This document shows positions 14,648-28,787 of a stretch of 28,787 nucleotides of DNA, piece after piece (position 1 is the stretch's first letter; every line of letters begins with the position of its first letter). Below the pieces are notes generated by a model. That model saw only the letters and a program-made list of their open reading frames with translations, made no database searches and was not told the DNA's origin. Origin of the DNA: a virus. The translations under genes were made by a program, and so were the position numbers. The DNA is taken from IMG/VR virus record IMGVR_UViG_3300046543_000089, positions 1-28,787 of that record. One strand, written 5' to 3'.

Positions 14648-14667
14648 CTCGGCTTCGCAAGTTGTGT

Positions 14668-14683: not shown

Positions 14684-14689
14684 GGGGCA

Positions 14690-15061
14690 TTACGCCGACA
14701 GGACCGAGACCCAGGTCATGCCGTCCGACGTGACGAGCAGCGCACTCTTCGTCACCGCGATCGAGATCGGGGCGTTGGCGGCGAGTCCGTTGATCGTGCC
14801 GCCAACCGGCGGGTAGACCTTCAGCGGGCCCGTCGCGCCGGTCACGACGCAGATGAGCTTCCGCGCAGCACCCTCGTTCTTGAGGATCGTGCCCGCGTTC
14901 GCGGCGACAGTCGTGAACAGGTTCACGCCGGCCGGCAGCGGCAGCGCGTCAGCGTTCGTGGTACCCGTCGCCGTCAGCGTGTTCGCGGTGTCGCCCGCAA
15001 TCGCCGCCTTGGCGTTCTGATCCCATTCCCCCAGGATCACCATGCTAGTTTCGTTGCTCAT
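14690..15061 (-). CDS. Small head protein (possible decoration protein)
   Basis: 123 residues from ATG 15061, with a GGAGAG ribosome site. Sequence features are strands and small residues: DTANTLTATGTTNADALPLP, then NLFTTVAANAGTILKNEGAA, then KLICVVTGATGPLKVYPPVG and a beta-strand end (SDGMTWVSVLS). A small all-beta protein directly after the coat gene is the usual place for a capsid decoration or cement protein. The CVVTGATG-LKVYPPVGGTING segment resembles small phage trimerising beta-domains. There is no direct proof. It is flanked by stem-loops on both sides, so its expression may be set separately from coat. Confidence 0.6.
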   Translation of the reverse strand: MSNETSMVILGEWDQNAKAAIAGDTANTLTATGTTNADALPLPAGVNLFTTVAANAGTILKNEGAARKLICVVTGATGPLKVYPPVGGTINGLAANAPISIAVTKSALLVTSDGMTWVSVLSA

Positions 15062-15087
15062 GCTTCTCTCCAGAGAGGTCGAGGAGA

Positions 15088-15103
15088 GGCGGCGCAAGCC
15101 GCC
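15088..15103 (-). terminator. Stem-loop after the coat gene
   Basis: GGCGGC and GCCGCC pair perfectly around four bases (TTGC on the minus strand), 13 nt after the coat stop. A pyrimidine stretch without a true U-run follows, so it is best read as an attenuator or mRNA-stabilising hairpin. Confidence 0.5.
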
Positions 15104-15115
15104 CCAACCTGCTGC

Positions 15116-16120: not shown

Positions 16121-16168
16121 GCCATGCTCCTAACAAATGTTGGGTTCATGTCGCCACGACCGTGAGCG

Positions 16169-17155: not shown

Positions 17156-17184
17156 ATCACTTCCTCCCCGCTCCGACTTGGTTT

Positions 17185-17277
17185 GGGCGCTCCGTCTTTA
17201 CGGTCAGCGCCCGCAGCTTTACGGTCTGCGGCAATGTGTTGGGTGTGTGCTGTTTGGCCCCGTCTCTACGGTCGGCC
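17185..17277 (-). promoter_or_regulatory. Three consecutive hairpins with a shared GACCGTARAG apex
   Basis: In the 136-nt leader of the scaffold gene (minus-strand reading): (A) 17212-17185, stem GGGCGCT/AGCGCCC around GACCGTAAAGACGG; (B) 17231-17211, stem CCGCAG/CTGCGG around ACCGTAAAG; (C) 17277-17256, stem GGCC/GGCC around GACCGTAGAGACGG. In A and C a second stem CCGT/ACGG sits above a GA bulge with loop AAAG or AGAG. The stems differ in sequence while the apex is conserved. That is the pattern of repeated protein- or RNA-binding sites, not of ordinary terminators. Confidence 0.7.
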
Positions 17278-17291
17278 GCGCAGCGCGGGTC

Positions 17292-17525
17292 CTACTTGGC
17301 CAGCTTGCGGGCGAGGGCTTCACCCTCATCCACGTACTGCAAAATCTTCTCGAGAACTTCAATCTCGGCTTGTGCTCGAGCAACATCGTCCATTGCACGC
17401 GCCTGCTTGAGCCGTCCTACCGCCTCGTCCAGCGACTCCCGAAGGTGTGTCACGAGGTGTGTGAACTCTGCTGCCCGCAGTCGCGAATACGCCGCATAGG
17501 TATGCGGCGAGACGACGCGCTTCAC
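17292..17525 (-). CDS. Small coiled-coil protein between portal and scaffold
   Basis: 77 residues, almost all helical and charged: SRLRAAEFTHLVTHLRESLD, then EAVGRLKQARAMDDVARAQA, then EIEVLEKILQYVDEGEALAR. Leu and Val at heptad positions imply a coiled-coil dimer. No family is recognised. It starts inside ATGA with the 69-aa gene. A small helical protein before the scaffold could be a portal or scaffold assembly helper. Confidence 0.6.
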   Translation of the reverse strand: MKRVVSPHTYAAYSRLRAAEFTHLVTHLRESLDEAVGRLKQARAMDDVARAQAEIEVLEKILQYVDEGEALARKLAK

Positions 17526-17731
17526 TTCGACAGCCCGTCGCCCTTGTTGGTGACTTGGCTGATTTCGCCGCCGCCGGGACGCTCGTGGAACTTGCCCGAG
17601 ATGGAAGTGGACGACGGCGAGCCAGCCACCGCACCAGCGCTGACGCTGCCGCCGGCGGTCACTTGACCCAGCTCGGCGCCATTGCGACCGTGCTGCAGGG
17701 CCGCCATGCTACCGGTTCCGCTCTTTGCCAT
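17522..17731 (-). CDS. Small Gly/Ser-rich protein
   Basis: 69 residues (MAKSGTGSMAALQHGRNGAE, then GGSVSAGAVAGSPSSTSISG, then FHERPGGGEISQVTNKGDGL). It is low-complexity and probably disordered, with no known domain. A clear ribosome site (TTAGGAG, six bases before ATG 17731) and ATGA coupling to the 77-aa gene support it as real. It may be a small head or assembly protein. Confidence 0.55.
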   Translation of the reverse strand: MAKSGTGSMAALQHGRNGAELGQVTAGGSVSAGAVAGSPSSTSISGKFHERPGGGEISQVTNKGDGLSK

Positions 17732-17794
17732 CTCGTACTCCTAACGTATGTATGTGTACGTGTCAACTACTTGCTGCGTACATGCTAACAAAGC

Positions 17795-17962
17795 TCAACC
17801 CGTTTGCGAAGGGGGTTTCGTGTCGACGATGAATGGATGGTTGTCCATCTGTCGCACGATGAAGCGCGGCGCGTCGGGCGGCGACATCAAGTTGAGGATC
17901 CGGACGGCTTCCTCGAGCGAGAAGCCTAGCCGGTGCATCTCCTGTATTTGCTCACCCACCAC
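17795..17962 (-). CDS. Small protein overlapping the portal 3' end
   Basis: 55 residues, beginning with GTG at 17962, 6 nt after a GGAG ribosome site and 8 nt before the end of the portal stop codon. The sequence reads MVGEQIQEMHRLGFSLEEAV, then RILNLMSPPDAPRFIVRQMD, then NHPFIVDTKPPSQTG. The helical HRLGFSLEEAVRILNLM part followed by PRFIVR-M-NHPFIV looks like a genuine small folded domain, and short genes just after the portal are usual in related blocks. The function is unknown. An internal ATG (residue 9) is an alternative start but lacks spacing from a ribosome site. Confidence 0.6.
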   Translation of the reverse strand: MVGEQIQEMHRLGFSLEEAVRILNLMSPPDAPRFIVRQMDNHPFIVDTKPPSQTG

Positions 17963-20213
17963 GGCTGGCTCCGAAGTTGTTCGTCACCGGCGCCCCGCTC
18001 GAGAGCTGCGCGCCCGGACCTGGACGCGGACCAGGAGCACCCTGGCCCTGCTGACCCTGCGGCGCTGGCGGCGCACCCGGCAGCAGGGGCACCTGCGACG
18101 GCCGGCCGGTCATGATCTCCTGGAGCTCCTGCGGCACCAGCGGCGCTTGGCCCGGAAGCATGACGCCGTGCTTAATCATGAACGCCTGCGCGAACTGCTG
18201 TTGCTGCATCTTCTGCTGCTGCGCCGCGGCGGCCTGCTGCTCCTGCGCCCAGCGCTGCTTGAGGACCGGCAGCGGCGCCACAATACCGGCATCCATGTCG
18301 AGCGTCTTGGCCGCGTTGCGGATGAGTTCGGCGATGCCTTCCTTGCCGACCACGTCCTGCACCATCTGGTTGCCGAGCGCGACCTGCAGGAACTGGCTCT
18401 GCTTCTGCTGCGCCGCGTCCTTCTGCATGAGCGCGACCGCGCCGCGCGCGACGACATTGACCGCGCCCTTGAGGTCGGAGTCGCTGCTGTAGCGCATGTT
18501 GTAGTAGTAGAGCCGGTCGATCGCCTGCTCGATAACCCGGTCATCGATGTTGCCGATGACCTGCTTGATCGACTTACCGGCGTTGCCCATCAGCATCGAC
18601 ATGCCCGAGGCCGTACGGCCAGCGCCGCCCGAAGGCGAGTCGCCGGTCATGTAGCGCGGGATGCCGGTGTATTCGTCGGCCAGCGCGGAGAACTGGTTGT
18701 AGACCATCATCAGTTCCTGGCTCATCGACTGCGGCTGGAAGAACTGCATCGGCGGCTGGCTGCTGTTGGACAGCGGATCGCTCGTGACCTGCCAGATCTT
18801 CCAGGGGTAAATCTGCGTGAGCTTCTCGCCCTCGGGCAGCCGATCGACGTTGTAGACGACCTGCGGCCCGCTCGCGAGCCCCATGTTGTTGACCAGCGCG
18901 CGGGCCGCCGCGTTGCAGATGCCCTGCGTGTCGCGGCACAGGTCCGCCACCGAGTTGCCCCAAAACGCGCCGGGGACTTCCTCGTACGATGCTTTGTAGT
19001 ACGGCTTGCGGCCGAGCGGGTCGGGGTTGATCGCAGCCTTGATGACCCAACTGCCGATGAGCCATGCCTCGATCGGGTACTCGGCGAGCGGATCCTGGAT
19101 CTCGGTCTCGTCCATGCCCCAGTCGATCAGCATCTGCCCCTGCACCGAGCCCCAAAACTGGAGCGCGTCGATCAGCTCGGAGGGGTTGGTCGCGACGCCG
19201 ATCGTCGCCTTGCCTTCAGCCGTCGCCTTGGCGGTGTCGACGTAGAGCCATTCCCGCAGGCCGCCCTTGCCGTAGGCATCGAGCACCGCGCGAATCGCTT
19301 GGTCCGAGTAGCCTTCGACGCCAATCAGCGCATTCAGGTCCGCACGTTGCAGCTTGTGGCGCTCGATCAGCCAGCTGTCCTCGACGTTCGACGCGTCCGG
19401 CGCCGGGTACATCATGAACGGGTCGACGCGCTCCCACTCGAGCGAGAGCTCCTGCTGCACGTCCGGCGCCCATCCGCCCGGGCCCTGCACCCACTTCAGC
19501 TTCGGGCGCTTGCGCACCACCGGCCCCTTCATGAAGGCCGAGGGGAATGTCGTGATGTCGTCGATGAATTCCGCGAGCGCGCGCAGCCAGCCGCCGCCGA
19601 GGAGCTGCGTCTGCATCTTGCGCTCCATCCGGTCGGCGTCCTGCTGCGCCATGTCTTGGATCTGCGCGAGGCCGATGTCCTTGAGCGCCATCAGCATCTG
19701 GCGCACCTCGAAGTCCGACGGGTTCTGGCCTTGCTGCATCGCCGCGGCAAGCTGCTGCTGCGCGATCTGCATGATCTCTTCGATCAGCTGCGGCGGCATG
19801 TCAGCGACCGGCGGCGCCTCGAGCGTCCACGGCTTGTCGTCGGTCGAGTTGAGCAGCACGTCGCGGATCCAAGATGCCGCCGCGCGGCACTTGTTCGACG
19901 TCAGCATCATGTAGATGGTCGTGCTGTTCTGCTCGGCAAGCTGCGCGAGCATATCCGGGTCGTACTCGCCGCGGCGCTGGCGCACCGACTGCAGCATCTT
20001 GATCTCGGCGGTCATCTCCTTGGCTTGGCGGGCGTCCCACCAGAGCTTCTTGATGTGCCCCGCGAACCCCTGCACGACCGAGTCGTTGTTCGCCGCCTGC
20101 GCGGCCGCGCGCTCCTCCGACTGCAGCTGGCTGAGCGACTTCATCTGCATGATGCCGCCAACCGAAGTCGATCCTGGCGCTTGGCCCGAGGTGAGGTTGA
20201 TGGCCTGTGCCAT
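17952..20213 (-). CDS. Portal protein
   Basis: 753 residues, in the large podovirus portal class. The core has VPGAFWGNSVADLCRDTQGI with ICNAAARALVNNMGLASGPQ, the portal helix hairpin region. Later come YTGIPRYMTGDSPSGGAGRT, then ASGMSMLMGNAGKSIKQVIG and NIDDRVIEQAIDRLYYYNM, a pattern typical of these portals. The C-terminus is Gln-rich helical (WAQEQQAAAAQQQKMQQQQF) and Pro/Gly-rich, possibly a barrel or disordered tail. It forms the dodecameric DNA entry ring and docks the terminase. Start ATG 20213 makes TAATG with the SGNH gene stop. Confidence 0.9.
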   Translation of the reverse strand: MAQAINLTSGQAPGSTSVGGIMQMKSLSQLQSEERAAAQAANNDSVVQGFAGHIKKLWWDARQAKEMTAEIKMLQSVRQRRGEYDPDMLAQLAEQNSTTIYMMLTSNKCRAAASWIRDVLLNSTDDKPWTLEAPPVADMPPQLIEEIMQIAQQQLAAAMQQGQNPSDFEVRQMLMALKDIGLAQIQDMAQQDADRMERKMQTQLLGGGWLRALAEFIDDITTFPSAFMKGPVVRKRPKLKWVQGPGGWAPDVQQELSLEWERVDPFMMYPAPDASNVEDSWLIERHKLQRADLNALIGVEGYSDQAIRAVLDAYGKGGLREWLYVDTAKATAEGKATIGVATNPSELIDALQFWGSVQGQMLIDWGMDETEIQDPLAEYPIEAWLIGSWVIKAAINPDPLGRKPYYKASYEEVPGAFWGNSVADLCRDTQGICNAAARALVNNMGLASGPQVVYNVDRLPEGEKLTQIYPWKIWQVTSDPLSNSSQPPMQFFQPQSMSQELMMVYNQFSALADEYTGIPRYMTGDSPSGGAGRTASGMSMLMGNAGKSIKQVIGNIDDRVIEQAIDRLYYYNMRYSSDSDLKGAVNVVARGAVALMQKDAAQQKQSQFLQVALGNQMVQDVVGKEGIAELIRNAAKTLDMDAGIVAPLPVLKQRWAQEQQAAAAQQQKMQQQQFAQAFMIKHGVMLPGQAPLVPQELQEIMTGRPSQVPLLPGAPPAPQGQQGQGAPGPRPGPGAQLSSGAPVTNNFGASRGG

Positions 20214-21385
20214 TACATTTGCCCCGGTTTCCAGATGGCTTCAGACGTGGTCTTGTTCCAGAGCGTGAAGTTGTTCACCGCGTAGACCCCGACGTCCTGC
20301 ACGAACAGCTGCGGCGTCGCATTGCCGGGAGTCGCCGGCGCCACGATCTCCTGGCAGAACACGTACTCGCCGTTCGTCTTGACCTGATTGATCGGCGCGG
20401 CCGTGCCGCCGGAGTCGAATGCGAGCGCTGCCGTGTAGCCATTGGGGCTCGCCGCGAGACCCGTGACCTTCAGGTGGCCCGAGTAGACCAGCGTGTCGCC
20501 CGCAGAGTACGACGCGGAGCTCGCCCCCGCACCGAACAGCGCATAGGCGCCCGTGCCGCTCGACTTCGTGTACGTGAAAGTGTTGCCGGTGTAGGGAGCA
20601 GCCGCCGCCGCGCTCGCGCCGGTCGCACCCGTAAAGTTCGGGCCCCAACCCGTCGGGTTCGTGCCGCCGGCCGCGAACGAGCCGTTCTGCAGCATGTTCG
20701 CTTGGTTGTTGGAAGCCGCTTCCGAGAAGCCCGCGAGGTACACCGGCGCAATCAGCGAGCCCGGGTTCGCGAGCGACGCGCCGAACGCATCCGAGATGGT
20801 CTGCGCGCCCAGGTCGTTGGGGTGAGTGCCGTCGGCAGAGAGCGTCGCCTTATAGTTTCCCGTCGATGCGTCGACGGTCAGGCGGAACATGTCGAGCAGC
20901 GGCAGCCCGTAGTACTGCGCGAGCATGTAGTAGAAGCGCTGGACGTTGCGGCAGGCAACCGGGTAGTTGTTGTTCGCCGGCGGCGTCGTGAGGATGACCG
21001 CCACGCCCGCGTTCAGCAGCGTGCGCACCGTCTGCTCGAGCGTGTTCATCAGCGCGGTGATGCCCGCGTTGGTGCCGCAGGTGGGCAGATCGTTGGTGCC
21101 GGACTGCAACAGGCACACATCCGCGCCCTTCGCGATCACGTCGGTGATGACCCGGGACAGGATCTGCGCGGCCGTCTGGCCGCTGACGCCGGCGTTGCTC
21201 AAGACCTGGAACCGGCCGCCGCCCTTCATCAGCGTCGCTTCGGCGTAGCCATTCGAGAGGGTCCAGACTCCACCGCCCGAGACGGCAGAGTTGGATTGCG
21301 TGATCGAATCCCCGAGGGGGATGGCGCGCAGCAGCGCCCGTTTGGCGAGGACTGCGCTGAATGGGGCGAAGGCGCGCATGCCCAT
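20213..21385 (-). CDS. SGNH/GDSL-hydrolase tail or head protein (first copy)
   Basis: 390 residues. SGNH blocks: GDSIT (25-29, Ser27), Gly in NAGVSG (64-69), GTND (96-99, Asn98) and DGTHPN (185-190, Asp185/His188). The C-terminal half is a beta-sandwich-like region (NNQANMLQNGSFAAGGTNPT and onwards), ending NKTTSEAIWKPGQM, related to the ending of the second SGNH protein at 8716-9909. It should hydrolyse ester (acetyl) groups on a surface glycan. Its position between terminase and portal is unusual for a receptor-modifying enzyme. It is translationally coupled to the small beta-protein before it and the portal after it. Confidence 0.85.
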   Translation of the reverse strand: MGMRAFAPFSAVLAKRALLRAIPLGDSITQSNSAVSGGGVWTLSNGYAEATLMKGGGRFQVLSNAGVSGQTAAQILSRVITDVIAKGADVCLLQSGTNDLPTCGTNAGITALMNTLEQTVRTLLNAGVAVILTTPPANNNYPVACRNVQRFYYMLAQYYGLPLLDMFRLTVDASTGNYKATLSADGTHPNDLGAQTISDAFGASLANPGSLIAPVYLAGFSEAASNNQANMLQNGSFAAGGTNPTGWGPNFTGATGASAAAAAPYTGNTFTYTKSSGTGAYALFGAGASSASYSAGDTLVYSGHLKVTGLAASPNGYTAALAFDSGGTAAPINQVKTNGEYVFCQEIVAPATPGNATPQLFVQDVGVYAVNNFTLWNKTTSEAIWKPGQM

Positions 21386-21678
21386 TACGACCCCCAGCCG
21401 GCCGAGACCGAGAGTGCCGCGGTGCCGGTCAGCGTAATCGCCGCCAGCTTCTTCATCCCCGCGACGCCGAAGACTTCGACGAGCCCCGGCGGGATCGGCA
21501 CGCCGGCGGTGGTCGCCGCGATGCTCGTGTCACCGGCCGCGAGGTAGGCGGTGTTCGCACCGCCGTTGTAGATGCGCACCGCCGCGCAGCCCGCAGGCAG
21601 CGTGATCGAGCTGCTCGCCACGCCGGCGGTCAGCACCTGCGTGCTTGTATTCGGATTCAGCTCGAAGGGAGTGTCCAT
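21385..21678 (-). CDS. Small beta-rich protein preceding the first SGNH gene
   Basis: 97 residues from ATG 21678. A TTG at 21690 would add four residues and has GAG 11 nt before it, so the start is uncertain. Sequence: NPNTSTQVLTAGVASSSITL, then PAGCAAVRIYNGGANTAYLA, then GVPIPPGLVEVFGVAGMKKL, then AAITLTGTAALSVSAGWGS. It is a compact all-beta domain like small phage spike or decoration units. It recalls in kind the C-terminal half of the 178-aa protein before the other SGNH gene. TAATG coupling to the hydrolase gene suggests a structural partner. Confidence 0.65.
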   Translation of the reverse strand: MDTPFELNPNTSTQVLTAGVASSSITLPAGCAAVRIYNGGANTAYLAAGDTSIAATTAGVPIPPGLVEVFGVAGMKKLAAITLTGTAALSVSAGWGS

Positions 21679-21704
21679 AGCCGTCGGCAAGTGTAGGGGA
21701 ACTC

Positions 21705-21732
21705 GCTAACGTATAGCACATAACCTGCTAAC
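21705..21732 (-). promoter_or_regulatory. Double GTTAGC element with TATA box after terminase gene
   Basis: Minus strand: GTTAGCAGGTT (21732-21722), then ATGTGC, TATAC, then GTTAGCGAG (21710-21702). The first part has the same layout as the element at 2652-2674. It lies in the 62-nt gap between the terminase stop and the next gene, one of the few real gaps in the block, so it is a good place for an internal promoter or operator. Confidence 0.45.
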
Positions 21733-21740
21733 AGGAAAGA

Positions 21741-23144
21741 TCAAACCCACCTAAATGGGGACGCACCGATTACCTGCGCTTTGGTCCGCGTCGAGCCGCC
21801 CGTCAGGTTGCCGTCGGCGTGCATCGCGGCGTACTGGTGCGAGTCGGCGATGTGCGAGTGCCGGTTCTTCTCCGGGGTGTCGTCAACGTCACCGTTGTTG
21901 CGCAGCTTGTAGCGATAGCCGCCGCGCAGCGCGTTGATGAGCGCCTTGCAGCGCGGGTCGATCAGGTGGGCGGGCTTGCCGTCCACCATCCGGGTCAGCC
22001 ACTGGTCGACCGCCGACACCCGCTGCACGATCGAGTTGCTGCGCGCGGAGATGACGCGGAAGCCCTCTTGCTTCAGGATGTCGAACACGCTCCTCTCGTC
22101 GGTCTGCGCGCGCTGGGTGCCTGCCGGGTCGCCTACCACGAGCACATCCATCCCCGCGAAGCGCGAGGCCAGCAGCGGCCTCAATTTCTCGCGGATGAAC
22201 CGCAGCTCACCCATCCCGTCGCTGGTCAGCTCGTCGTACGTGAGGAAGCGCCCCTGCGGGTCGATCTGGTTGATCGTGCAGGCCGGCGTCAGCCCGAAGT
22301 CGTGCCCGAGGATCAGCGGCCGCGTGCTCATGCGGATCGGCCGCAACTCGCTCTTGGCGACGTGCAGGTCCATGTCGAAGGAGCGGAACACCGGCTGGCC
22401 GGAGAGCGACTTGCCGAATTTGCCGTGGACAAAGATGTCGATCCAGTCCTGCGACTTCCCTTCGCACAAGTTCTCGTAGTAGTCGTCCTTCAGGTAGTGC
22501 AGCCAGTCGGCAGACGGCGAGAGCCCCGACGGCTGGAAGAACACCGCGGCGTTGGCCGGCGGGTTCGACAGGTACGTCTCCCAAAACGTGTCAAGGTCAG
22601 GGGGGTTGCTCATCCCCCAAAACTTGTCGATCTGGTTGCCGTAGTCGTCGCACGCGCCCACGCCGTTGTCCGCCTTCGATGGGTAGCGCCCCAGGCGCCC
22701 CTGCAGCGTGTCGAACACCTCGGGGTTCAGCTCCCGGAACTCGTCCGCGATCGCGAAGGTCGCCTGCAGCGAGAGCAGCCGCCGCACGTCGCCCGCGTCG
22801 TCGAGGCCCCGGAACAGCACTTCGCACTCGACGTCGGAGAACTTGAGCACGAACCGGTAGTTGGTCTTCTCGAGCATGCCGGCGAGGCCGTCAGGGTACC
22901 AGCGCAGGAAGTCGGGGATCGACGTGTCGCGCAGCTGCTCGCGGGACTGCCGAATCCAGATCGCGCGCGAGCGCCGGATGCCGTCGCGGCACGCGCGGAT
23001 GCGCTTCGACTCGTAGGCGATCTTCAGGATGCCCGCGGTGGTCTTCGTCGAGCCGACCGGGCCCACGACCAAGTTGATGAACTTGTCGGAGGCGAAGAAC
23101 CCCGAGAGGGTGCGGGGGGGCTGGTAGCTCAGCTGCTCGCTCAT
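21741..23144 (-). CDS. terL: Terminase large subunit
   Basis: 467 residues. ATPase domain: Walker A GPVGSTKT (28-35), Walker B ATFAIADE (128-135, Asp134/Glu135) and a coupling-type segment FWGMSNPPD (175-183). Nuclease domain of RNase H type: Asp282 in LILGHDFGLTP, Asp339 in VLVVGDPAG and Asp434 in HSHIADSHQY. It drives DNA into the prohead through the portal and cuts concatemers. The length and motif order are complete. ATG 23144 overlaps the small-subunit stop (ATGA). The Walker A loop has Val-Gly-Ser instead of the classic Gly-rich loop but keeps GxxGxxKT. Confidence 0.93.
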   Translation of the reverse strand: MSEQLSYQPPRTLSGFFASDKFINLVVGPVGSTKTTAGILKIAYESKRIRACRDGIRRSRAIWIRQSREQLRDTSIPDFLRWYPDGLAGMLEKTNYRFVLKFSDVECEVLFRGLDDAGDVRRLLSLQATFAIADEFRELNPEVFDTLQGRLGRYPSKADNGVGACDDYGNQIDKFWGMSNPPDLDTFWETYLSNPPANAAVFFQPSGLSPSADWLHYLKDDYYENLCEGKSQDWIDIFVHGKFGKSLSGQPVFRSFDMDLHVAKSELRPIRMSTRPLILGHDFGLTPACTINQIDPQGRFLTYDELTSDGMGELRFIREKLRPLLASRFAGMDVLVVGDPAGTQRAQTDERSVFDILKQEGFRVISARSNSIVQRVSAVDQWLTRMVDGKPAHLIDPRCKALINALRGGYRYKLRNNGDVDDTPEKNRHSHIADSHQYAAMHADGNLTGGSTRTKAQVIGASPFRWV

Positions 23145-23647
23145 GCGTCCGGGATCTCGTGGTCAGGGATGTCGATCGTGAGGACCGGATCGGAGACGGT
23201 GGGGGTGATGTCGATCGCGGCGGCGGCAGCGGGCCCGGGGAGCGTGATGTTGATCGTGAAGCCACTGCCCTGCTGCGCGGCCGCGGCCTTCGGCGCCTTG
23301 TCGCCCCACTTCACAAGCGCCTCAGTGACGGCCAGCTTCTGCATCAGCGGCACGTCGGACGACAGGCCGATGCGGCCCAGGTCGTCGAGCATCATCTCGG
23401 CCAGCAGCCCTGCCTTGGTCCGAAACGTCCAGCCCTCGGCCGCGAGCTCCGCGCGCTTCTTGTCGACCGCATCGAGGAACGGCTGCCATGTGGCGAGCTG
23501 GTCCCAACGCACTCCCGCGAAGCCGTACCGGCGCGCGACGTCCACGGGCTCCTCGAGCCCCTTGGCCATCTCCGCGACCATCTCGGCCGGGATCTGCAGC
23601 CGCGCGTCGTTGAGCGGATCGAAGGGTACGAGCTCCTTGTCCTTCAT
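23141..23647 (-). CDS. Probable terminase small subunit
   Basis: 168 residues. The N-terminal half is helical (NDARLQIPAEMVAEMAKGLE, then EPVDVARRYGFAGVRWDQLA), with a helix-turn-helix-like VARRYGFAGVRWDQL. A central helical oligomerisation part follows (DAVDKKRAELAAEGWTFRTK, then AGLLAEMMLDDLGRIGLSSD), and the C-terminus is Ala-rich and beta-like, ending EIPDA. It stands directly before terL with ATGA overlap, the standard site for the DNA-recognising small subunit. The family match is by layout; no database hit is claimed. Confidence 0.7.
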   Translation of the reverse strand: MKDKELVPFDPLNDARLQIPAEMVAEMAKGLEEPVDVARRYGFAGVRWDQLATWQPFLDAVDKKRAELAAEGWTFRTKAGLLAEMMLDDLGRIGLSSDVPLMQKLAVTEALVKWGDKAPKAAAAQQGSGFTINITLPGPAAAAAIDITPTVSDPVLTIDIPDHEIPDA

Positions 23648-24045
23648 TTCGGCTGCTTGAGGAACTTGCGCAGGGCCACCATCAACGCGGTGTGCAGGTA
23701 GGCGAACGACTCGTTGGCCTTGCCCGGTTCGGTCGTCAGGCCGACATCCTCAGCGATGCCGAAGCAGACGTGGATCAGCTCGTGCGCGAGCGTGACCTCA
23801 GAGCCGTCGAAGACCCCCACGAGGTACACCGGCCGGCCCGACCACTCGCCCGTCTTCTTGTCGGTCGTCTGGATGCAGCAAGTGACGCCGCCGCTCGCCA
23901 GCTGTTTGTCGCTGGGCAGCCCCGCCCACACCTTCATCGCGCGGAAGTCGGCGGCTGTGTTGACCATGCACACCTGCCCGCCGTAGATCGGGATCTTGCA
24001 TCCACGGGCAGCCTTGGGCCACGTCGGCTTAGTGTTTTTTGACAT
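23644..24045 (-). CDS. HExxH zinc metallopeptidase-like protein
   Basis: 133 residues from ATG 24045; an upstream in-frame ATG at 24093 would overlap the previous gene much further. Residues 86-93 (LAHELIHV) carry a zinc-binding HExxH motif (His88, Glu89, His92), and NESFAYLH (111-118) offers Glu112 as third ligand, as in small gluzincin and ImmA/IrrE-like peptidases. Cys residues (16, 26, 56, 57, 94) are unusually many. It could process a host regulator or a phage protein; the substrate is unknown. It overlaps the preceding gene by 17 nt and the terminase small-subunit gene by ATGA. Confidence 0.7.
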   Translation of the reverse strand: MSKNTKPTWPKAARGCKIPIYGGQVCMVNTAADFRAMKVWAGLPSDKQLASGGVTCCIQTTDKKTGEWSGRPVYLVGVFDGSEVTLAHELIHVCFGIAEDVGLTTEPGKANESFAYLHTALMVALRKFLKQPK

Positions 24046-24238
24046 CAGAGGGTGTGCAGATGAAGTCGGCGACGTCCCTGAGTGCGCGCGCAAAGCGCTG
24101 GTTCAGGTCCATGTCCTTCAGGTTGCCGTTCGCATGAACGTCCAGCTTGCCCTGCTCGTCGAGGTAGAAGTCCACGACAAAGACCGGCGTCTGCCCTTCG
24201 GGCTTGGGTGGTAGAGGTTCTTGCGTCGGATCGCTCAT
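24029..24238 (-). CDS. Small hypothetical protein
   Basis: 69 residues: a Pro-rich start (MSDPTQEPLPPKPEGQTPVF), a beta-hairpin (VVDFYLDEQGKLDVHANGNL) and a helix (LNQRFARALRDVADFICTPS). This is a small alpha/beta domain without a recognised family. The start is inside ATGA with the ribbon-helix-helix gene, and the C-terminal codons overlap the metallopeptidase start by 17 nt. Confidence 0.65.
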   Translation of the reverse strand: MSDPTQEPLPPKPEGQTPVFVVDFYLDEQGKLDVHANGNLKDMDLNQRFARALRDVADFICTPSDVKKH

Positions 24239-24390
24239 TTCGGCTCCATGTCGAGGTACTCGAGGAGGGCTCGGCGAACGTGCTCCGACACCGGCGTGCC
24301 GACGGCGGCCGCGCGCTTCTTCAACTCCGCAACCACCCGCGGCGGCAGGAAGAAGTTGCAGCGGATCATCGGTTCCGGTGTCTTGCTCAT
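24235..24390 (-). CDS. Ribbon-helix-helix DNA-binding protein
   Basis: 51 residues. IRCNFFLPPRVVAELKKRAA, then VGTPVSEHVRRALLEYLD is a CopG/Arc-type ribbon-helix-helix: one beta-strand (MIRCNFFLP), helix A (PRVVAELKKRAAA), turn GTPVS, helix B (EHVRRALLEYL). Such dimers insert paired strands into the major groove and often repress their own operon. It starts at ATG 24390 (TAATG with the Tad2-like gene) and stops in ATGA with the next gene. It is a plausible regulator of the leftward block or of the nearby inverted repeats. Confidence 0.8.
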   Translation of the reverse strand: MSKTPEPMIRCNFFLPPRVVAELKKRAAAVGTPVSEHVRRALLEYLDMEPK

Positions 24391-24668
24391 TACGCGACCA
24401 TCCAGTCTTCGGCGTTCAGGTCCGGCGTGGTGGTGTGCCACGGCCCGCTCTCCTTGCCGTCGGTAAGGATGAACGGATCGAGCGGCGCACCGGGCTTCGC
24501 GTTGGCGAACCCGGGGTGCGTGAGGAACTTGCCATCCGGCCAGTGCGCGCGCTTGACGCTCTTGTCGGCCTTCATCCAGGCGAGTGCGGTGGTGAAGTCG
24601 GCGGGCCCGTCTTCCGGGATCTCCGGTTCGTCGGGCGGGAGGTTCGGGGTGTGATCTGCTTCGGTCAT
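24390..24668 (-). CDS. Tad2-like (DUF2829) protein, copy 2
   Basis: 92 residues from ATG 24668. After a Pro-rich start comes DFTTALAWMKADKSVKRAHW with PDGKFL, and at the end TTTPDLNAEDWMVA. The framework F..AL.wmK.dk.VkR..W......(x30)...DL.AeDW is that of DUF2829, the family of Thoeris anti-defence protein Tad2, which binds cyclic ADP-ribose-type and some cyclic nucleotide signals and blocks defence activation. It is coupled by ATGA to a second member upstream. The family assignment is by motif order; the bound ligand cannot be predicted. Confidence 0.75.
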   Translation of the reverse strand: MTEADHTPNLPPDEPEIPEDGPADFTTALAWMKADKSVKRAHWPDGKFLTHPGFANAKPGAPLDPFILTDGKESGPWHTTTPDLNAEDWMVA

Positions 24669-24925
24669 TTCGCAAGTCTCCAATCGTTGGCCAGGATGTC
24701 GGTCTGGTCGGGTTGCCACGAGGTGAACGCGTCGTCTTCCTGGACCACGTCGATCACCGCAGCCTTCCGGTGGTGTCCGCAGCGCACGTACTCAACGTCC
24801 GTGATCTCGAGCCACTTGCCGCCGTTCCACTCGGTGCGCGTCACGCGCTCGCCCATGCGCAGCCACTGAAGGGCCACGCCGAAGTCGACTATGTCAGTCG
24901 TGAGCGGCAGGCTTAGCTGCTGCAT
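24665..24925 (-). CDS. Tad2-like (DUF2829) protein, copy 1
   Basis: 86 residues from ATG 24925, which has a strong ribosome site (AGGAGGG, seven bases before). Core motifs are VDFGVALQWLRMGERVTRTE with WNGGKWLEI, and SWQPDQTDILANDWRLAK at the C-terminus. The RTEWNGGKW and SWxPxQTDILAxDW blocks are close to the DUF2829/Tad2 consensus, closer than in copy 2. It probably forms a tetramer that sequesters Thoeris/CBASS signalling molecules. The gene is among the first of the leftward block, which would suit early expression. The longer frame to 25000 is rejected on the ribosome-site evidence. Confidence 0.8.
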   Translation of the reverse strand: MQQLSLPLTTDIVDFGVALQWLRMGERVTRTEWNGGKWLEITDVEYVRCGHHRKAAVIDVVQEDDAFTSWQPDQTDILANDWRLAK

Positions 24926-25016
24926 GAGATAGCCCTCCTGCAAATGCGAAGACAATGTCCAGATACATGCAGACGGCAAGCCCGTTGAGCATGTACGCAT
25001 AGATCGGCAGCATCAT
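24894..25016 (-). CDS. Small hydrophobic peptide, first gene of leftward block
   Basis: 40 residues (MMLPIYAYMLNGLAVCMYLD, then IVFAFAGGLSHAAAKPAAHD) with one membrane-spanning stretch (about 3-27) and a short polar tail. AGGAG lies eight bases before ATG 25016, so initiation is credible. A second ATG follows at once. It overlaps the first Tad2-like gene by 32 nt in another frame. It may be a membrane microprotein or a translated leader that sets translation of the anti-defence gene. No family is known. Confidence 0.5.
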   Translation of the reverse strand: MMLPIYAYMLNGLAVCMYLDIVFAFAGGLSHAAAKPAAHD

Positions 25017-25040
25017 CTGGACAACTCCTGTGTGTTTGGT

Positions 25041-25077
25041 CGTGAGCACGGCCCCTCGGGTAAGAAACCTGCTCACG
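25041..25077 (-). promoter_or_regulatory. Leader stem-loop before the leftward block
   Basis: CGTGAGCA (25041-25048) and TGCTCACG (25070-25077) are perfect complements around a 21-nt loop, 25-60 nt upstream of the first leftward start codon. It could be an operator dyad on DNA or a leader hairpin in RNA. Two further G-C pairs can form beyond a one-base bulge. Confidence 0.5.
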
Positions 25078-25096
25078 GTGGCCAGCTTAGTGGGCG

Positions 25097-25244
25097 CAAG
25101 CACCTAACCGGCAAGGAAAAGTTAGCAGGTATGTATGCGTATGTCCAAATATTTTTTCGTGTGCGTAGGATGTATGTATGCCTAAAAAATAGGAGGCGCG
25201 ATACGAGTAAGGGGTAATCGGGGTGCCCCCCCGGGGGGTGCTTG
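25097..25244. repeat. Separated half-sites CAAGCACC and GGTGCTTG
   Basis: CAAGCACC at 25097-25104 and its complement GGTGCTTG at 25237-25244 flank 132 nt containing the GTTAGCAGGT element and the first G/C runs. The same two halves form compact hairpins at 25724-25750 and 26383-26409. Confidence 0.55.
25121..25130 (+). repeat. GTTAGCAGGT element in the divergent region
   Basis: A 10-bp copy of the intergenic element, here followed by ATGTATGCGTATG instead of the TATA box. It stands between the leftward leader and the structured region. Confidence 0.55.
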
Positions 25245-25276
25245 GTCCTCCTGGGGGGTGGGGGTGGGGGCCAAGC
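25211..25276 (+). other. Extreme G/C-run segment with G-quadruplex and hairpin potential
   Basis: Runs in order: GGGG (25211), GGGG (25220), seven C (25226-25232), six G (25233-25238), then GGGGGG-T-GGGGG-T-GGGGG (25253-25270). The last three runs with the preceding six-G run satisfy a G-quadruplex pattern with five-or-more-G tracts. Alternatively, 25240-25250 pairs with 25266-25276 in an 11-bp stem with two G-U pairs. No reading frame with known content explains it. Confidence 0.6.
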
Positions 25277-25760
25277 CTGAATGCGACGCACTCGCGTTGA
25301 CAGGCGGTGAATTCACCGATCGACCACTAGCAAGGGAGCCCTGTTCCCGAGTAACGGCAAGCCCCTAAGCCCGGAAGGTTGTAAGCGGGGACCATGCAAG
25401 CGGACGCGTAGACGCTCTGTTAAGGGGTAGACACGCAATGTCGCCAGCGGCAAGTGGTGCGATCGGATACTAGGCACTCCTACGAGTGAGCACGTAAAGC
25501 CGAGGTCGCGGGTCAGGTTCAATCACTGACCGGTAGGGATAACTCACTAAAGCGTGAGCCAGATGAACGGCGCGTTTACGAGTGGCGAATTCCTAGGTGG
25601 CGCGAAACCCGCGGGACGCCACAAGCACGGAGGGAGTGTGCGCATTCTCTCTGTGTAAGTCCTACGCCGCTGAATCGATAACCAAGCTATAGGCGGCGTG
25701 GGCAAGAGTTCCGTAAGGACTCTCAAGCACCTTAATCCTAGGGTGCTTGATACCACTTAC
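25277..25760 (+). ncRNA. Putative structured non-coding RNA or long structured 5' leader
   Basis: About 480 nt without a convincing gene but dense in perfect local stems: CGGTGAATTCACCG palindrome (25305-25318); CACTC/GAGTG (25475-25488); GGTCAG/CTGACC (25511-25531) with loop GTTCAATCA; CTCAC/GTGAG (25543-25558); GTGGCG/CGCCAC (25597-25622); a 10-bp stem 25661-25670 with 25693-25702; AGAGTTCC-GTAA-GGACTCT (25705-25723) with a GNRA tetraloop; and TCAAGCACC/GGTGCTTGA (25723-25750). The GNRA loop is correct only on the plus strand, which is also the direction of the following gene. No match to tRNA, tmRNA, RNase P or intron signatures was convincing. The boundaries are approximate. Confidence 0.5.
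25724..25750 (+). repeat. CAAGCACC stem-loop, copy 1
   Basis: CAAGCACC, a ten-base loop (TTAATCCTAG), then GGTGCTTGA. It ends 25 nt before the ATG of the 178-aa gene and just before its ribosome site (CAGGGG). It is 24 of 27 positions identical to copy 2, with the stem fully conserved. Confidence 0.7.
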
Positions 25761-25775
25761 TGACAGGGGTTTATC

Positions 25776-26312
25776 ATGGCTAAGGCATTTGAACTGGCAT
25801 CCGGCGCCGATCTCGTGGTCTACATCGGCAAGATTGGTCGCGCAGGTGCCAAGTTGGACAAGATGATCCAACACGCTGCCGTCCACGCAATTGGTCACGC
25901 CATTGCGCATGGCGACATCAAGTACGCGAATGAATTGCTTGAGGCATTGCCCAAGGGCGGTCGCAAGCAAGCGTTTGTGAAGTACATGGAAACGTTTGGT
26001 CCGTTTGCGTTCAGTACGCAAGCGAAGAAGTTTGGCTTCTTCAAGCGCGATGGTCTCGCGTTCGATGGTGCGGCATTGCTTGAAGGACAGCAATGGCACG
26101 AGACCATCAAGGAGGAACTGGTGTCCACGCTTGACGTGGAGGATATGGTTGCCAAGATGCTCAAGCGCATCGAGGCTGCCGTGAAGAAGGATCCGAAGTC
26201 GGTCAAGGGCATGGATCTGTACAGCGCAGTGAGCGCAGCTGTGGCTGAGTACCATTCCACGAGCATCACGGAAGATGACGACGTCGAACTGCCGGCTGTC
26301 AAGGCAGCGTGA
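25776..26312 (+). CDS. Conserved-looking early phage protein of unknown function
   Basis: 178 residues. Helical N-terminal half: VYIGKIGRAGAKLDKMIQHA, then VHAIGHAIAHGDIKYANELL, then EALPKGGRKQAFVKYMETFG and PFAFSTQAKKFGFFKR. It has an acidic C-terminus (SITEDDDVELPAV). The order of small-helix, K-L...I, AI.HGD...A..L..AL..G.R..A....FGPF resembles a protein I remember as common in early regions of short-tailed phages, without known function. The lack of catalytic motifs and the basic helices allow nucleic-acid binding. It is the first rightward gene, with a CAGGGG ribosome site. Its leader holds the duplicated stem-loop, which could be an autoregulatory target. Confidence 0.75.
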   Translation: MAKAFELASGADLVVYIGKIGRAGAKLDKMIQHAAVHAIGHAIAHGDIKYANELLEALPKGGRKQAFVKYMETFGPFAFSTQAKKFGFFKRDGLAFDGAALLEGQQWHETIKEELVSTLDVEDMVAKMLKRIEAAVKKDPKSVKGMDLYSAVSAAVAEYHSTSITEDDDVELPAVKAA

Positions 26313-26485
26313 TGTTCCGTAGCCACGTCGCCATCATGATGGAGCGCGACGCGGTCTATGCCGCGCGCTCTCCCGATCAACCCAAGCACCTCAATCGTGG
26401 GGTGCTTGAGCGGCTGCCTCGTATCTGGAGAGGTGGCAAGCAGTACGTTGTGAAGCAGGATGGTAAGTTGCAAGCCATCTTGTAG
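26312..26485 (+). CDS. Small basic protein coupled to the 178-aa gene
   Basis: 57 residues starting at ATG 26312 within TGATG: MFRSHVAIMMERDAVYAARS, then PDQPKHLNRGVLERLPRIWR, then GGKQYVVKQDGKLQAIL. It is basic, with a helix and a beta-hairpin (RIWRGGKQYVVKQDGKLQAI), and could bind nucleic acid. Its codons 25-33 encode the second copy of the CAAGCACC stem-loop, so part of its sequence may be constrained by RNA structure rather than by protein. A GGCGGTG/CACCGCC hairpin follows 10 nt after the stop. Confidence 0.6.
   Translation: MFRSHVAIMMERDAVYAARSPDQPKHLNRGVLERLPRIWRGGKQYVVKQDGKLQAIL
26383..26409 (+). repeat. CAAGCACC stem-loop, copy 2 (inside a gene)
   Basis: CAAGCACC, a ten-base loop (TCAATCGTGG), then GGTGCTTGA. 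The stem is identical to copy 1 and seven of ten loop bases agree. It lies within the 57-aa coding frame. Confidence 0.7.
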
Positions 26486-26805
26486 CTTGATATCTGGCGG
26501 TGGCTAATTCACCGCCCGTTCCATTAGCAGATACGAACCCTATATGCCATAAGGGTTTGAGGTATATAACTAGCTATCTGGCTATTTGTCCGGTAGAAAT
26601 ATGGTGTATCGCGTGAGAGTCCACGAGCCTAAGTTAAATACTCGTGGCGCACATGGTATCTCTCACTCTCATACAGCACGCACCCATAAATTCGCCGACA
26701 TTTGCGTGGATGCTGTGGAATCAAGGACTTAGCGCAACACGAACCGCCCGATACCTGGCACTTTACCGCCAGATACCTGCTCACAACCATGAGGATTAAA
26801 CCCAC
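26486..26805 (+). other. 320-nt intergenic stretch with nested hairpins
   Basis: No gene is supported here. It holds: stem GGCGGTG/CACCGCC (26496-26516), terminator-like but without a U-run; AACCCT/AGGGTT (26536-26557); a two-tier structure GTGAGAG/CTCTCAC (26613-26619, 26660-26666) enclosing CCACGAG/CTCGTGG (26621-26627, 26641-26647); and CTGGC/GCCAG (26755-26772) flanked by two GATACCTG copies (26750, 26772). AT content is higher than in the leftward block. Confidence 0.6.
26496..26516 (+). terminator. Stem-loop after the 57-aa gene
   Basis: Perfect 7-bp stem GGCGGTG/CACCGCC with loop GCTAATT, 10 nt after the stop at 26485. CGTTCCATT follows, so a weak terminator or an mRNA 3'-end structure. 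Confidence 0.45.
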
Positions 26806-27138
26806 ATGAACGCGCAACTTATTCAGACGCTCGTCGACTTCCCGGACGACAAGCCATTCGTGCGCATCACAAGCTGGCACATGATGGGCTGTTCATTGTA
26901 TGGGGTTGCGCTCGATCATCCGCGTCTCGGATGCCAGTCAATCAAGTCCAGCACTATCGTGGCATTTGATCCTGACCTCGGCATGGTCGAGACATTAAAC
27001 ACGCTATACGTGTTGGACTTGACTAACCCACGATTCAAGCCACGCATCGTGGAGTCCATTGTTCCACTGCCGACGCGCACGGATCCGGTCCTGTTGTTGA
27101 CGGATCAACGCAAGGGTTTACCCGAAGCTGTGGCGTAA
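26806..27138 (+). CDS. Small protein, DUF6957-like pattern
   Basis: 110 residues. VRITSWHMMGCSLYGVALDH, then PRLGCQSIKSSTIVAFDPDL, then MVETLNTLYVLDL form a beta-rich core: W...G..L.G....HPR......I..S.I......VeTlNTlY.L. I recall this order from DUF6957-type proteins of proteobacteria and their phages, of unknown function. The C-terminus (PRIVESIVPLPTRTDPVLLL) is extended. The ribosome site is weak (GAGG, 11 bases before). A six-codon minicistron (ATG 26789) ends in TGA overlapping the start as ATGA and may help initiation. Confidence 0.65.
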   Translation: MNAQLIQTLVDFPDDKPFVRITSWHMMGCSLYGVALDHPRLGCQSIKSSTIVAFDPDLGMVETLNTLYVLDLTNPRFKPRIVESIVPLPTRTDPVLLLTDQRKGLPEAVA

Positions 27139-27163
27139 CCCACTAACCATCTGTTCTTTCCGC

Positions 27164-27192
27164 TAGACAACCCGCTAACGTGTGTATATATT
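27164..27192 (+). promoter_or_regulatory. Sigma70-type promoter before the AP2 gene
   Basis: TAGACA (27164-27169), a 17-bp spacer, then TATATT (27187-27192); each hexamer has five of six consensus bases. Transcription would start near 27199, about 30 nt before the AP2-protein ATG. Confidence 0.65.
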
Positions 27193-27209
27193 CAACCCAT
27201 CGCGTTAGC
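27174..27209 (+). promoter_or_regulatory. Dyad GCTAACG/CGTTAGC around the promoter
   Basis: GCTAACG (27174-27180) lies in the promoter spacer and CGTTAGC (27203-27209) just past the expected start site; the perfect 7-bp inverted halves are 22 bp apart, bracketing the -10 box. This is a typical place for a repressor. The half-site shares its core with the GTTAGC elements found elsewhere. Confidence 0.5.
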
Positions 27210-27227
27210 ATCAACCCGGAGTAGCGC

Positions 27228-27461
27228 ATGTACTCAGACAGTGGTGAGAACATCAACCCGCTTGGCCGAGTCGGCGTGATGTCGGAGCAGTTGAAATACA
27301 GCGTGGTGTTCCGGGCATACATCTACGTCAAGCAGGCTGGTGGATACAAGCGGATCAGCCTCGGCACGCACGCCACATTGGATGAGGCAGCGCACGCCTA
27401 CAACAAGGCCGCCATTCGTTACCACGGTGACGCGGCCAAGCTAAACCCTGTCGGAACCTGA
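27228..27461 (+). CDS. Stand-alone AP2-domain protein
   Basis: 77 residues. After a short N-terminus, FRAYIYVKQAGGYKRISLGT, then HATLDEAAHAYNKAAIRYHG and DAAKLNPV is a complete AP2 signature: strands (YIYVKQ, YKRISLG), then LGT..T.dEAA.AYn.AAi.yhG..AkLN with the amphipathic helix. AP2 domains bind GC-rich DNA through the three strands. In phages they usually sit on HNH homing nucleases; here no nuclease part is present, so it could be a regulator or a remnant. The start at 27228 is supported by GGAG six bases before. Confidence 0.8.
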   Translation: MYSDSGENINPLGRVGVMSEQLKYSVVFRAYIYVKQAGGYKRISLGTHATLDEAAHAYNKAAIRYHGDAAKLNPVGT

Positions 27462-27533
27462 TACATCCCCGCGAGCCTTAAGCGGTTGCCGCCGGCCGAC
27501 CGAGCCTAACCAAGCCGTCCTCATGATCGCGGG

Positions 27534-27577
27534 CCATCTCTTCGAGTCTTCTACCTGTGTTCGCGGCGAAGAGATGG
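27534..27577 (+). promoter_or_regulatory. 11-bp perfect inverted repeat
   Basis: CCATCTCTTCG (27534-27544) and CGAAGAGATGG (27567-27577) around a 22-nt loop, in the 197-nt gap between the AP2 gene and the next gene. It would form a strong RNA stem or a wide DNA dyad. No U-run follows, so it is not a plain terminator. No gene is seen in the gap. Confidence 0.6.
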
Positions 27578-27658
27578 ATGAAGTAGTAAGGACAGCAAGC
27601 CGGCACCAACACTGCAGCACGCACGTTCACCTATCACAAACGCACACGAGGCTACACC

Positions 27659-27874
27659 ATGAACAACGCAACCGTGGATGACGCGATCTTCTCGACCATC
27701 GGCCAACTGATGCAGGACGCCTTCAATGGTTGGGCACCTGCGATCGCCGTGCTGGCTCTGTTCGGTATCGTGCTGCTCGTCATGCTGGTCCTGGGCACCG
27801 TCGATGCCTTTGCCAAGCGCGACGTGGCATCCAGCGAGGCAGACGTCTATACAGACACCAAGGTGCGGGAATGA
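27659..27874 (+). CDS. Small single-span membrane protein
   Basis: 71 residues: a polar N-terminus (MNNATVDDAIFSTIGQLMQD), one membrane segment (about 26-48, APAIAVLALFGIVLLVMLVL), then a charged tail (DAFAKRDVASSEADVYTDTK). No signal cleavage site or lipobox. GAGG precedes the ATG by 8 nt. It is first in a run of translationally coupled tiny genes (ATGA with the next). It is not in a lysis setting, so an envelope-modifying or superinfection-type role is more likely than holin, though unproven. Confidence 0.65.
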   Translation: MNNATVDDAIFSTIGQLMQDAFNGWAPAIAVLALFGIVLLVMLVLGTVDAFAKRDVASSEADVYTDTKVRE

Positions 27875-28065
27875 CTTCCCCCCACGGTCTCTTCGACAAG
27901 CGCGCCGAGCACAACCACGCGCAGATCGAGTACTGGATCGGGCACTACACCACGAGGCTCGCCAACGAGGTGATGAGCGAGCGCGACATGAAGTGGTGTG
28001 AGGAGCGGCTGGCAACGATGGTCGCGGCACGCATGGGCGCGGTGGCCGACGAGGTGAGCGCATGA
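27871..28065 (+). CDS. Small helical protein, EYWxxxYTTRL motif
   Basis: 64 residues from ATG 27871 (ATGA): MTSPHGLFDKRAEHNHAQIE, then YWIGHYTTRLANEVMSERDM, then KWCEERLATMVAARMGAVAD. It is amphipathic helical throughout. The pattern H.n...IeYWi..Yt.RL recurs in the protein at 28478-28657 (AHENIAYWTARLLEL), which suggests a small paralogous family. The function is unknown. Confidence 0.6.
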   Translation: MTSPHGLFDKRAEHNHAQIEYWIGHYTTRLANEVMSERDMKWCEERLATMVAARMGAVADEVSA

Positions 28066-28202
28066 CACTCGCCCTCTCACTATTCATCATGCTGGTCCTG
28101 CCTTGTGTGCTGTCGACACGGCGCATCTGGATGGCTGACTGGCAGTTTTGGGCGATCTGCGGGTTGATCGTGTGCGGCGTACTCATCGGGACAACACTGT
28201 GA
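28062..28202 (+). CDS. Tiny two-span membrane protein
   Basis: 46 residues from ATG 28062 (ATGA with the previous stop): MTLALSLFIMLVLPCVLSTR, then RIWMADWQFWAICGLIVCGV, then LIGTTL. Two hydrophobic stretches (about 2-17 and 28-45) are joined by a basic/aromatic loop. Translational coupling at both ends supports expression. The role is unknown. Confidence 0.55.
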   Translation: MTLALSLFIMLVLPCVLSTRRIWMADWQFWAICGLIVCGVLIGTTL

Positions 28203-28291
28203 TGGACGACCCTAACAACATCCCGGGCTGGTTGTTCGCCGTTGCGCTGATCGTGTTCGGCGTCATGCTGCTCGCACCTTGGAACGGCTGA
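28202..28291 (+). CDS. Tiny single-span membrane peptide
   Basis: 29 residues from ATG 28202, sharing one base with the previous stop (TGATG): MDDPNNIPGWLFAVALIVFG, then VMLLAPWNG. One membrane stretch (about 10-26) has an acidic N-terminal end. It is too short for family assignment. It is supported by coupling and by lying between two coupled genes. Confidence 0.5.
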   Translation: MDDPNNIPGWLFAVALIVFGVMLLAPWNG

Positions 28292-28292
28292 G

Positions 28293-28478
28293 ATGACCCA
28301 GTACTTTCCAAAGCACGCCATCGCTGAGCTTGAGCGTCGGCTGAAGCGGGAGGATGCGCTGCACGACATCAATACGCACCTCGCATGGTTGGCTGAGCCT
28401 AGACCCGGTGGCCCAGCACTGCGTGAGCAGGTTGAGAAGGCTCTCGCGGAAGCGACCACAAGATTGTTGGAGTTGTGA
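28293..28478 (+). CDS. Small helical protein ending TTRLLEL
   Basis: 61 residues: MTQYFPKHAIAELERRLKRE, then DALHDINTHLAWLAEPRPGG, then PALREQVEKALAEATTRLLEL. Two charged helices are joined by a PRPGG turn. It is one base after the previous stop. Its last 20 nt are identical to the end of the next gene, so the two share the C-terminal RLLEL and a common repeat. Confidence 0.6.
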   Translation: MTQYFPKHAIAELERRLKREDALHDINTHLAWLAEPRPGGPALREQVEKALAEATTRLLEL

Positions 28479-28657
28479 TGGACACCGTCATTGAATACGA
28501 GCAGCACTGGGCGCGCGTAAAGCAAGACCGTGAGAAAGAAGCGTGCCGTGAGCAGATCAGGCAGCAGCAGATGTGGCTCAAGACAGGTAGTAAGAAGGAC
28601 CAGGAGCGCGCGCACGAGAACATCGCTTACTGGACCGCAAGATTGTTGGAGTTGTGA
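28459..28657 (+). repeat. 20-nt direct repeat at the ends of two adjacent genes
   Basis: CAAGATTGTTGGAGTTGTGA occurs at 28459-28478 and 28638-28657, each time forming the last codons and stop of a small gene. With one mismatch it extends four bases further upstream. It contains GGAG, which can serve as ribosome site for the following gene. Confidence 0.75.
28478..28657 (+). CDS. Small helical protein ending TARLLEL
   Basis: 59 residues from ATG 28478, one base overlap with the previous stop (TGATG): MDTVIEYEQHWARVKQDREK, then EACREQIRQQQMWLKTGSKK, then DQERAHENIAYWTARLLEL. It is highly charged and helical. AHENIAYWTARL resembles NHAQIEYWIGHYTTRL of the 64-aa protein at 27871-28065. The GGAG inside the 20-nt repeat is its likely ribosome site. 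The function is unknown. Confidence 0.6.
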   Translation: MDTVIEYEQHWARVKQDREKEACREQIRQQQMWLKTGSKKDQERAHENIAYWTARLLEL

Positions 28658-28676
28658 CTGAGCATCGGAGGATGTC

Positions 28677-28787
28677 ATGCACACCGCACATACTGAGTTG
28701 ACGTTACACGCGCACCACTACACCGAGTACGGCCAGATCGATGGCGGGCGTTGGTTCGAACGCCGAGTCGTGGACTACGGCTCGGTC
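28677..28787 (+). CDS. Small protein, partial at right edge
   Basis: ATG 28677 follows CGGAGGA closely and the frame stays open to the edge: 37 residues (MHTAHTELTLHAHHYTEYGQ, then IDGGRWFERRVVDYGSV). It looks like the start of a beta-rich small protein. A competing ATG at 28672 stops after nine codons. Identity unknown. Confidence 0.5.
   Translation, partial: MHTAHTELTLHAHHYTEYGQIDGGRWFERRVVDYGSV

Follow-up and report, generated by a model that had tools for sequence, protein, structure and literature searches.

What do two overlapping genes of the Tad2-like family do for a phage that carries them at the head of its packaging block, and do their products act together or apart? We address this question in a window of 28,787 bases (the whole stretch of DNA analysed here), which is an IMG/VR virus record and probably a fragment. 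Its virion genes are podovirus-like (internal virion protein, head-tail adaptor/portal, major head protein and terminase), and no DNA-level match to any annotated phage record was found for positions 10000-28787.

Locus layout, family membership and predicted fold

The two genes, Tad2-1 (24665-24925, 86 aa) and Tad2-2 (24390-24668, 92 aa), lie on the minus strand and overlap by the four bases ATGA. They head a leftward block in which a ribbon-helix-helix (RHH) protein (24235-24381, minus strand; PF01402, 26.0 bits against a cut-off of 20.5) is followed by proteins of 69 aa and 132 aa, a candidate for the terminase small subunit (TerS; 23141-23647, minus strand) and the terminase large subunit (TerL; 21741-23144, minus strand; phrog_2, E 2e-22), an arrangement that agrees with the preliminary description, which had placed the pair at the head of the packaging block. 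The TerS candidate, which precedes TerL and is conserved in relatives, gave no match in family searches. On the other side of the pair, a rightward phrog_1448 gene starts at 25776.

The two proteins had been described from the sequence as adjacent, ATGA-coupled members of DUF2829 that are clearly diverged from each other, and both points hold: the minus-strand ORFs at 24390-24925 score 58.0 bits (Tad2-1) and 39.6 bits (Tad2-2) against PF11195 (Tad2-like), whose gathering score is 25 bits, values far beyond chance, and they share 26% identity. The Tad2-like domain comprises residues 14-84 of Tad2-1 and residues 24-91 of Tad2-2, which has an acidic N-terminal extension of 22 residues. When solved structures were searched with the sequence of Tad2-1, ModTad2, SPO1 Tad2, AcrIIA7/HgmTad2 and SptTad2 were recovered; none of these entries was matched by Tad2-2 in a single-sequence search, whereas the family profile does match solved Tad2 structures.

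AlphaFold2 models of the single chains (pLDDT 90.4 for Tad2-1 and 84.5 for Tad2-2) were compared with known structures, a check that the preliminary description had proposed, and both resemble Tad2 best. The Tad2-1 model aligns with SPO1 Tad2 (8WJE) at Z 11.7 (77 residues, 3.1 Å) and with ModTad2 (8V3E) at Z 11.4 (73 residues, 2.1 Å), and the Tad2-2 model aligns with 8WJE at Z 11.1 (71 residues, 3.1 Å). For both models the high-scoring fold matches are Tad2 entries only, with the next ones at Z ~6 and below, and Foldseek ranks ModTad2 first for Tad2-1 (E 8.3e-7). The best match outside Tad2 is a neck protein of phage 812 (PDB 8QKH; Z 6.0 and 5.4), a likeness that may be just a common arrangement and that scores below the level treated as informative by the tool.

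Family and predicted fold are thereby common to the window pair and to three groups of characterised proteins, namely SPO1 Tad2 (gp34.65; PDB 8SME, 8SMF, 8WJE), a gcADPR sponge; ModTad2 from a Myroides odoratus prophage (PDB 8V3E, 9EIB), a His-ADPR sponge directed at type II Thoeris; and HgmTad2/AcrIIA7 and SptTad2 (PDB 8KBI-8KBM, 8WJD; Z ~10-11), which bind ADP-ribose and cyclic dinucleotide signals. We regard the assignment of both window proteins to the Tad2-like family, judged by profile scores and predicted structures, as solid.

Searching with the window TerL identified 62 related viral loci, and 50 of these records were searched for PF11195. Only L026, whose TerL is 83-84% identical to that of the window, gave a match; the records of the other 49 relatives, many of them short fragments and several 43-62 kb long, gave none. 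In L026 the gene order is identical, the pair again overlaps by ATGA, and the RHH gene comes next. Another relative, L079, has TerS and TerL as in L026, but its contig starts past the position of the pair. Because the RHH gene is found near TerS in ~34 relatives, almost none of which has a Tad2 match, it is not a regulator dedicated to the pair, and we rejected such an Aca-like role; it is a core neighbour that stands outside the pair. The Tad2 pair itself behaves like an insert before the core RHH-TerS-TerL block.

Head or packaging genes lie close to Tad2-like genes in 6 of the 14 annotated phages examined (MalagasyRose, Philippe, Curiosium, phiAH14a, SpaA1 and TMW 1.1397 P1), so that this location is common, not general. 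Genes of PF13876 (Phage_gp49_66) adjoin or lie near Tad2-like genes in phages N4, Parlo and Huey (PF13876 near Tad2-like genes at L131 1881-2731, L130 2018-3181 and L132 2276-3391), and the two perhaps constitute a shared module.

Upstream of Tad2-1 lies a leader hairpin of 35 bases, GTGAGCAGGTTTCTTACCCGAGGGGCCGTGCTCAC (25042-25076, minus strand), and the same hairpin occurs in L026 at 165-199, with folding energies of -19.0 and -20.6 kcal/mol. The changes between the two keep the stem paired through G-U and G-C, and a T-run is absent. In relatives without the pair the hairpin pattern was not found, save for one match elsewhere in L037, and an exact-pattern scan of IMG/VR, with a pattern that did not fit L026 either, gave no match. 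Scans around the leader found no terminator and no sigma-70-like promoter, and Rfam returned nothing near its gathering score. Between hairpin and Tad2-1, overlapping the start of the latter, a putative hydrophobic ORF of 40 aa (24894-25016, minus strand) has a good ribosome-binding site; we read it from the sequence and the alignment, in which it is absent from L026.

Pocket loops and probable ligand class

The ligand pocket of SPO1 Tad2 is formed by the beta1-beta2, beta3-beta4 and beta4-alpha3 loops, strand beta4 and helix alpha3, with contributions from two protomers, and cyclic dinucleotides bind Tad2 elsewhere, via an insertion between beta2 and beta5 (reviewed in PMC12043709). 3'3'-cGAMP is not a ligand of SPO1 Tad2 (PMC11722364). 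For ModTad2, binding of His-ADPR and inhibition of type II Thoeris have been reported (PMC13299392; PDB 9EIB title).

Tad2-1 has both canonical loops of SPO1 Tad2, WNG and QTD. Its beta1-beta2 loop reads RTEWNGGK, with the lysine one position further along than in SPO1 Tad2, and its beta4-alpha3 segment is WQPDQTDILANDW, with the motif QTD-ILANDW. Both loops are changed in Tad2-2, where RAHWPDGK and WHTTTPDLNAEDW (motifs WPDG and TPDLNAEDW) depart from the canonical WNG and QTD/SD forms. The QTD motif that the preliminary description had ascribed to both proteins is accordingly intact in Tad2-1, with TPDLNAEDW in its place in Tad2-2, and the loss of pocket residues that it had named as a point to look for is found in part, in the loops of Tad2-2, those of Tad2-1 being kept. 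With such loops, Tad2-2 should not be classed as a canonical sponge; it may still serve as a sponge or as a component of one.

The conserved tryptophans are 37 residues apart in Tad2-1 and 34 in Tad2-2, compared with 48 in SPO1 Tad2 and ModTad2 and 66 in HgmTad2. Both window proteins lack the long insertion after beta2 that characterises HgmTad2 and SptTad2 and that is linked to cyclic dinucleotides. The window pair differs further from SPO1 Tad2, which is a single gene without a QLSLPL tail (see below), and from ModTad2, a single protein with a canonical WNGKG loop and a longer beta hairpin. Since the cyclic-dinucleotide insertion is missing, a TIR-made ADP-ribose signal is the likelier ligand of Tad2-1, as opposed to a cyclic dinucleotide. 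The same absence (37 and 34 residues against 66) makes the capture of CBASS cyclic dinucleotides, which had been suggested for the pair, unlikely in either copy and leaves a CBASS role without support.

Tad2 doublets and proposed joint action

The orthologue of Tad2-1 in L026 is encoded at 223-480 (48% identity, BLASTP) and that of Tad2-2 at 480-722 (36% identity, BLASTP; 41% over aligned codons). On a tree, the two Tad2-1 copies pair with each other, as do the two Tad2-2 copies, at moderate support (~90%) and with long branches that blur deeper placement; this pairing indicates that the doublet most likely predates the split between the window phage and L026. Estimates of dN/dS between the two, which are rough because synonymous change is high, are 0.31 for Tad2-1, 0.63 for Tad2-2, 0.17 for TerL and 0.29 for TerS, and show that both Tad2 genes are under purifying selection, Tad2-2 less so. 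Both Tad2-2 copies have the segment WHTT..LNA.DW in common. Neither copy in L026 keeps the canonical loops, so this pair may by now have a different ligand or function, which counts against the sponge reading preferred below.

Close relatives of Tad2-2 were found neither in annotated phages nor in plasmids or IMG/VR by single-protein search. Tad2-like genes occur in 4 of 398 Pseudomonadota genomes, one of which has five copies, and scans of bacterial genome contigs gave one Tad2-like locus. In the Pseudomonadota genome with five copies, G378, the Tad2-like domains are distributed over four contigs, and two of the domains lie ~1 kb apart.

Tandem Tad2 genes are already known, as annotation: the 2012 table of phage SpaA1 lists ORF60 and ORF61 both as DUF2829 homologues of SPO1 gp34.65. 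SpaA1 has four Tad2-like genes, of which these two overlap by 1 base. Scanning 233 loci (171 distinct best domains), we counted 21 doublets, a few of them spaced by 167 to 735 bases; three further apparent doublets (L154, L218 and L224) look like split single domains and are not among the 21. Two main forms emerged. The first consists of overlapping genes, as in SpaA1 and its contigs and in contigs L233-L251, which have close relatives of one SpaA1 gene, and the second of single ORFs in which a divergent N-terminal domain is fused to a canonical C-terminal one (L290, L284, L291, L287, L300, L277, L302 and L003; Pfam calls two stretches in L290 and L003, and one in L300 and L302).

Exactly one copy carries WNG in 18 of the 21 doublets, and WNG is present in 139 of 147 single copies; because the probes contained WNG and included two from SpaA1, and merging was limited to identical domains, these counts show recurrence, not frequency. 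The combination of one divergent and one canonical Tad2 copy is thus a recurring doublet type in unrelated phages. Like the window pair, the doublets of SpaA1 and of the Bacillus-type contigs L233-L251 are overlapping Tad2-like genes, as a rule a canonical copy plus a divergent one. They differ in that the divergent copy, which is of another subfamily, stands first, the overlap is 1 base and there is no clamp-type tail.

Domains found as a fusion in one genome often interact where they are encoded separately, and by this usual argument the fused doublets favour a physical association of the copies; as the divergent domain of the fused proteins is of another subfamily than Tad2-2, the argument is one of analogy. 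The hetero-oligomer considered in the preliminary description draws indirect support from the divergent-plus-canonical doublets and the single-ORF fusions.

On sequence and predicted structure, a sponge function of the pair is probable. Our preferred reading goes further and is tentative, at somewhat less than an even chance: the pair would be a phage counter-defence cassette, inserted before the packaging genes, whose two products act jointly. Tad2-1 would sponge a TIR-made ADP-ribose signal (gcADPR isomers or His-ADPR) through its canonical pocket, a ligand class and an anti-Thoeris activity that we infer. Tad2-2 would be a duplicated or co-acquired partner with changed pocket loops, made by coupled translation, and would most likely assemble with Tad2-1 into a mixed tetramer of altered ligand range. 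Canonical Tad2 sponges are homotetramers with their pockets at the contacts between protomers, so that bringing in a partner with different loops would alter the pocket.

The copies could instead be two independent homomeric sponges, Tad2-1 capturing a TIR-type signal and Tad2-2 another nucleotide signal in a re-shaped pocket. Their pocket loops differ strongly, and the scattered, unlinked Tad2-like genes of some phages (three each in G062 and G063, four in SpaA1) indicate that separate action is possible. However, the insertion linked to cyclic dinucleotides is in neither copy, and the ATGA overlap seen here and in L026, like the fusions at other loci, points to copies that work together; we consider independent sponges unlikely.

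The Tad2-1 tail and the remaining alternatives

Outside its Tad2 domain, Tad2-1 has an N-terminal tail, MQQLSLPLTTD (24893-24925, minus strand), of which residues 3-8 (24902-24919, minus strand) are exactly QLSLPL, a hexapeptide of the clamp-binding type. QLSLPL is the N-terminal hexapeptide that E. coli Hda requires to bind the beta sliding clamp (PMC3836487), and it has been put into the exonuclease subunit DnaQ as a strong clamp-binding version (PMC4703070, PMC4478557). In Hda, too, it lies near the N terminus (PMC3836487); Hda has no other similarity to Tad2-1. The tail of the L026 orthologue, MEQLELPLTGQ, has the motif as QLELPL. Between the two phages, 7 of 11 residues are identical in the tail and 34 of 75 in the remainder, and each of the six residues conserved behind Met1 has a different, synonymous codon in the two phages (6/6), which suggests selection on the tail peptide itself. 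The tail is modelled with low confidence (mean pLDDT ~61 over residues 1-10), as expected for a flexible docking peptide.

By composition, the chance of QLxLPL in a 12-residue tail is ~1e-5, for a motif that was noticed after the fact. Across 1.34 million six-frame residues, QLxLPL is confined to Tad2-1, L026 and the beginning of one ORF in L145, by our estimate about as many occurrences as expected from composition. At the L145 locus (214-876, minus strand), this ORF comes after a divergent Tad2-like gene and starts with MKQLDLPL, a clamp-type N-terminal peptide. We treat clamp docking of Tad2-1 as a lead, not a result. An extended version of the joint cassette, in which QLSLPL would tether the Tad2-1 sponge to the host beta clamp and Tad2-2 would complete a mixed sponge at the replication site, is a long shot. 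To our knowledge, neither a clamp-addressed counter-defence sponge nor a heteromeric Tad2 is described in the literature found.

The tail also bears on whether the Tad2 fold serves another role here, either in host takeover at the replication clamp or in the virion or its neck. Such a role would fit the conservation of the clamp-type tail at the protein level, the position of the genes at the head of the packaging block and the weak fold match to the neck protein of phage 812 (Z 6.0 and 5.4). Yet every strong sequence and fold match is to a Tad2 sponge, the neck match falls under the informative level of the tool, and close relatives keep their virion genes without the pair, which is hence not an essential part of the virion; we find this role decidedly unlikely.

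That Tad2-2 is a duplicate in decay and does little by itself, Tad2-1 alone being of consequence, would account for its lost pocket-loop residues and for its faster evolution than its neighbours (dN/dS 0.63), but is very unlikely given a dN/dS below 1, a frame intact in both phages, the WHTT..LNA.DW segment common to both Tad2-2 copies, a doublet kept since before the phages split and changed loops in both L026 copies.

Tad2 sponges are treated as single genes in the literature found. Doublets that combine a canonical copy with one of altered loops, as overlapping genes or as fusions, are a recurrent feature of several phage lineages, and this recurrence makes it directly testable whether Tad2 sponges can be heteromeric and thereby capture more kinds of signal. 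The clamp-type tail, if its proposed function is true, would link a sponge to the replisome, a link absent from the literature found. If neither the heteromer nor the clamp link holds, the locus would be a clean example of an anti-defence-type insert beside packaging genes.
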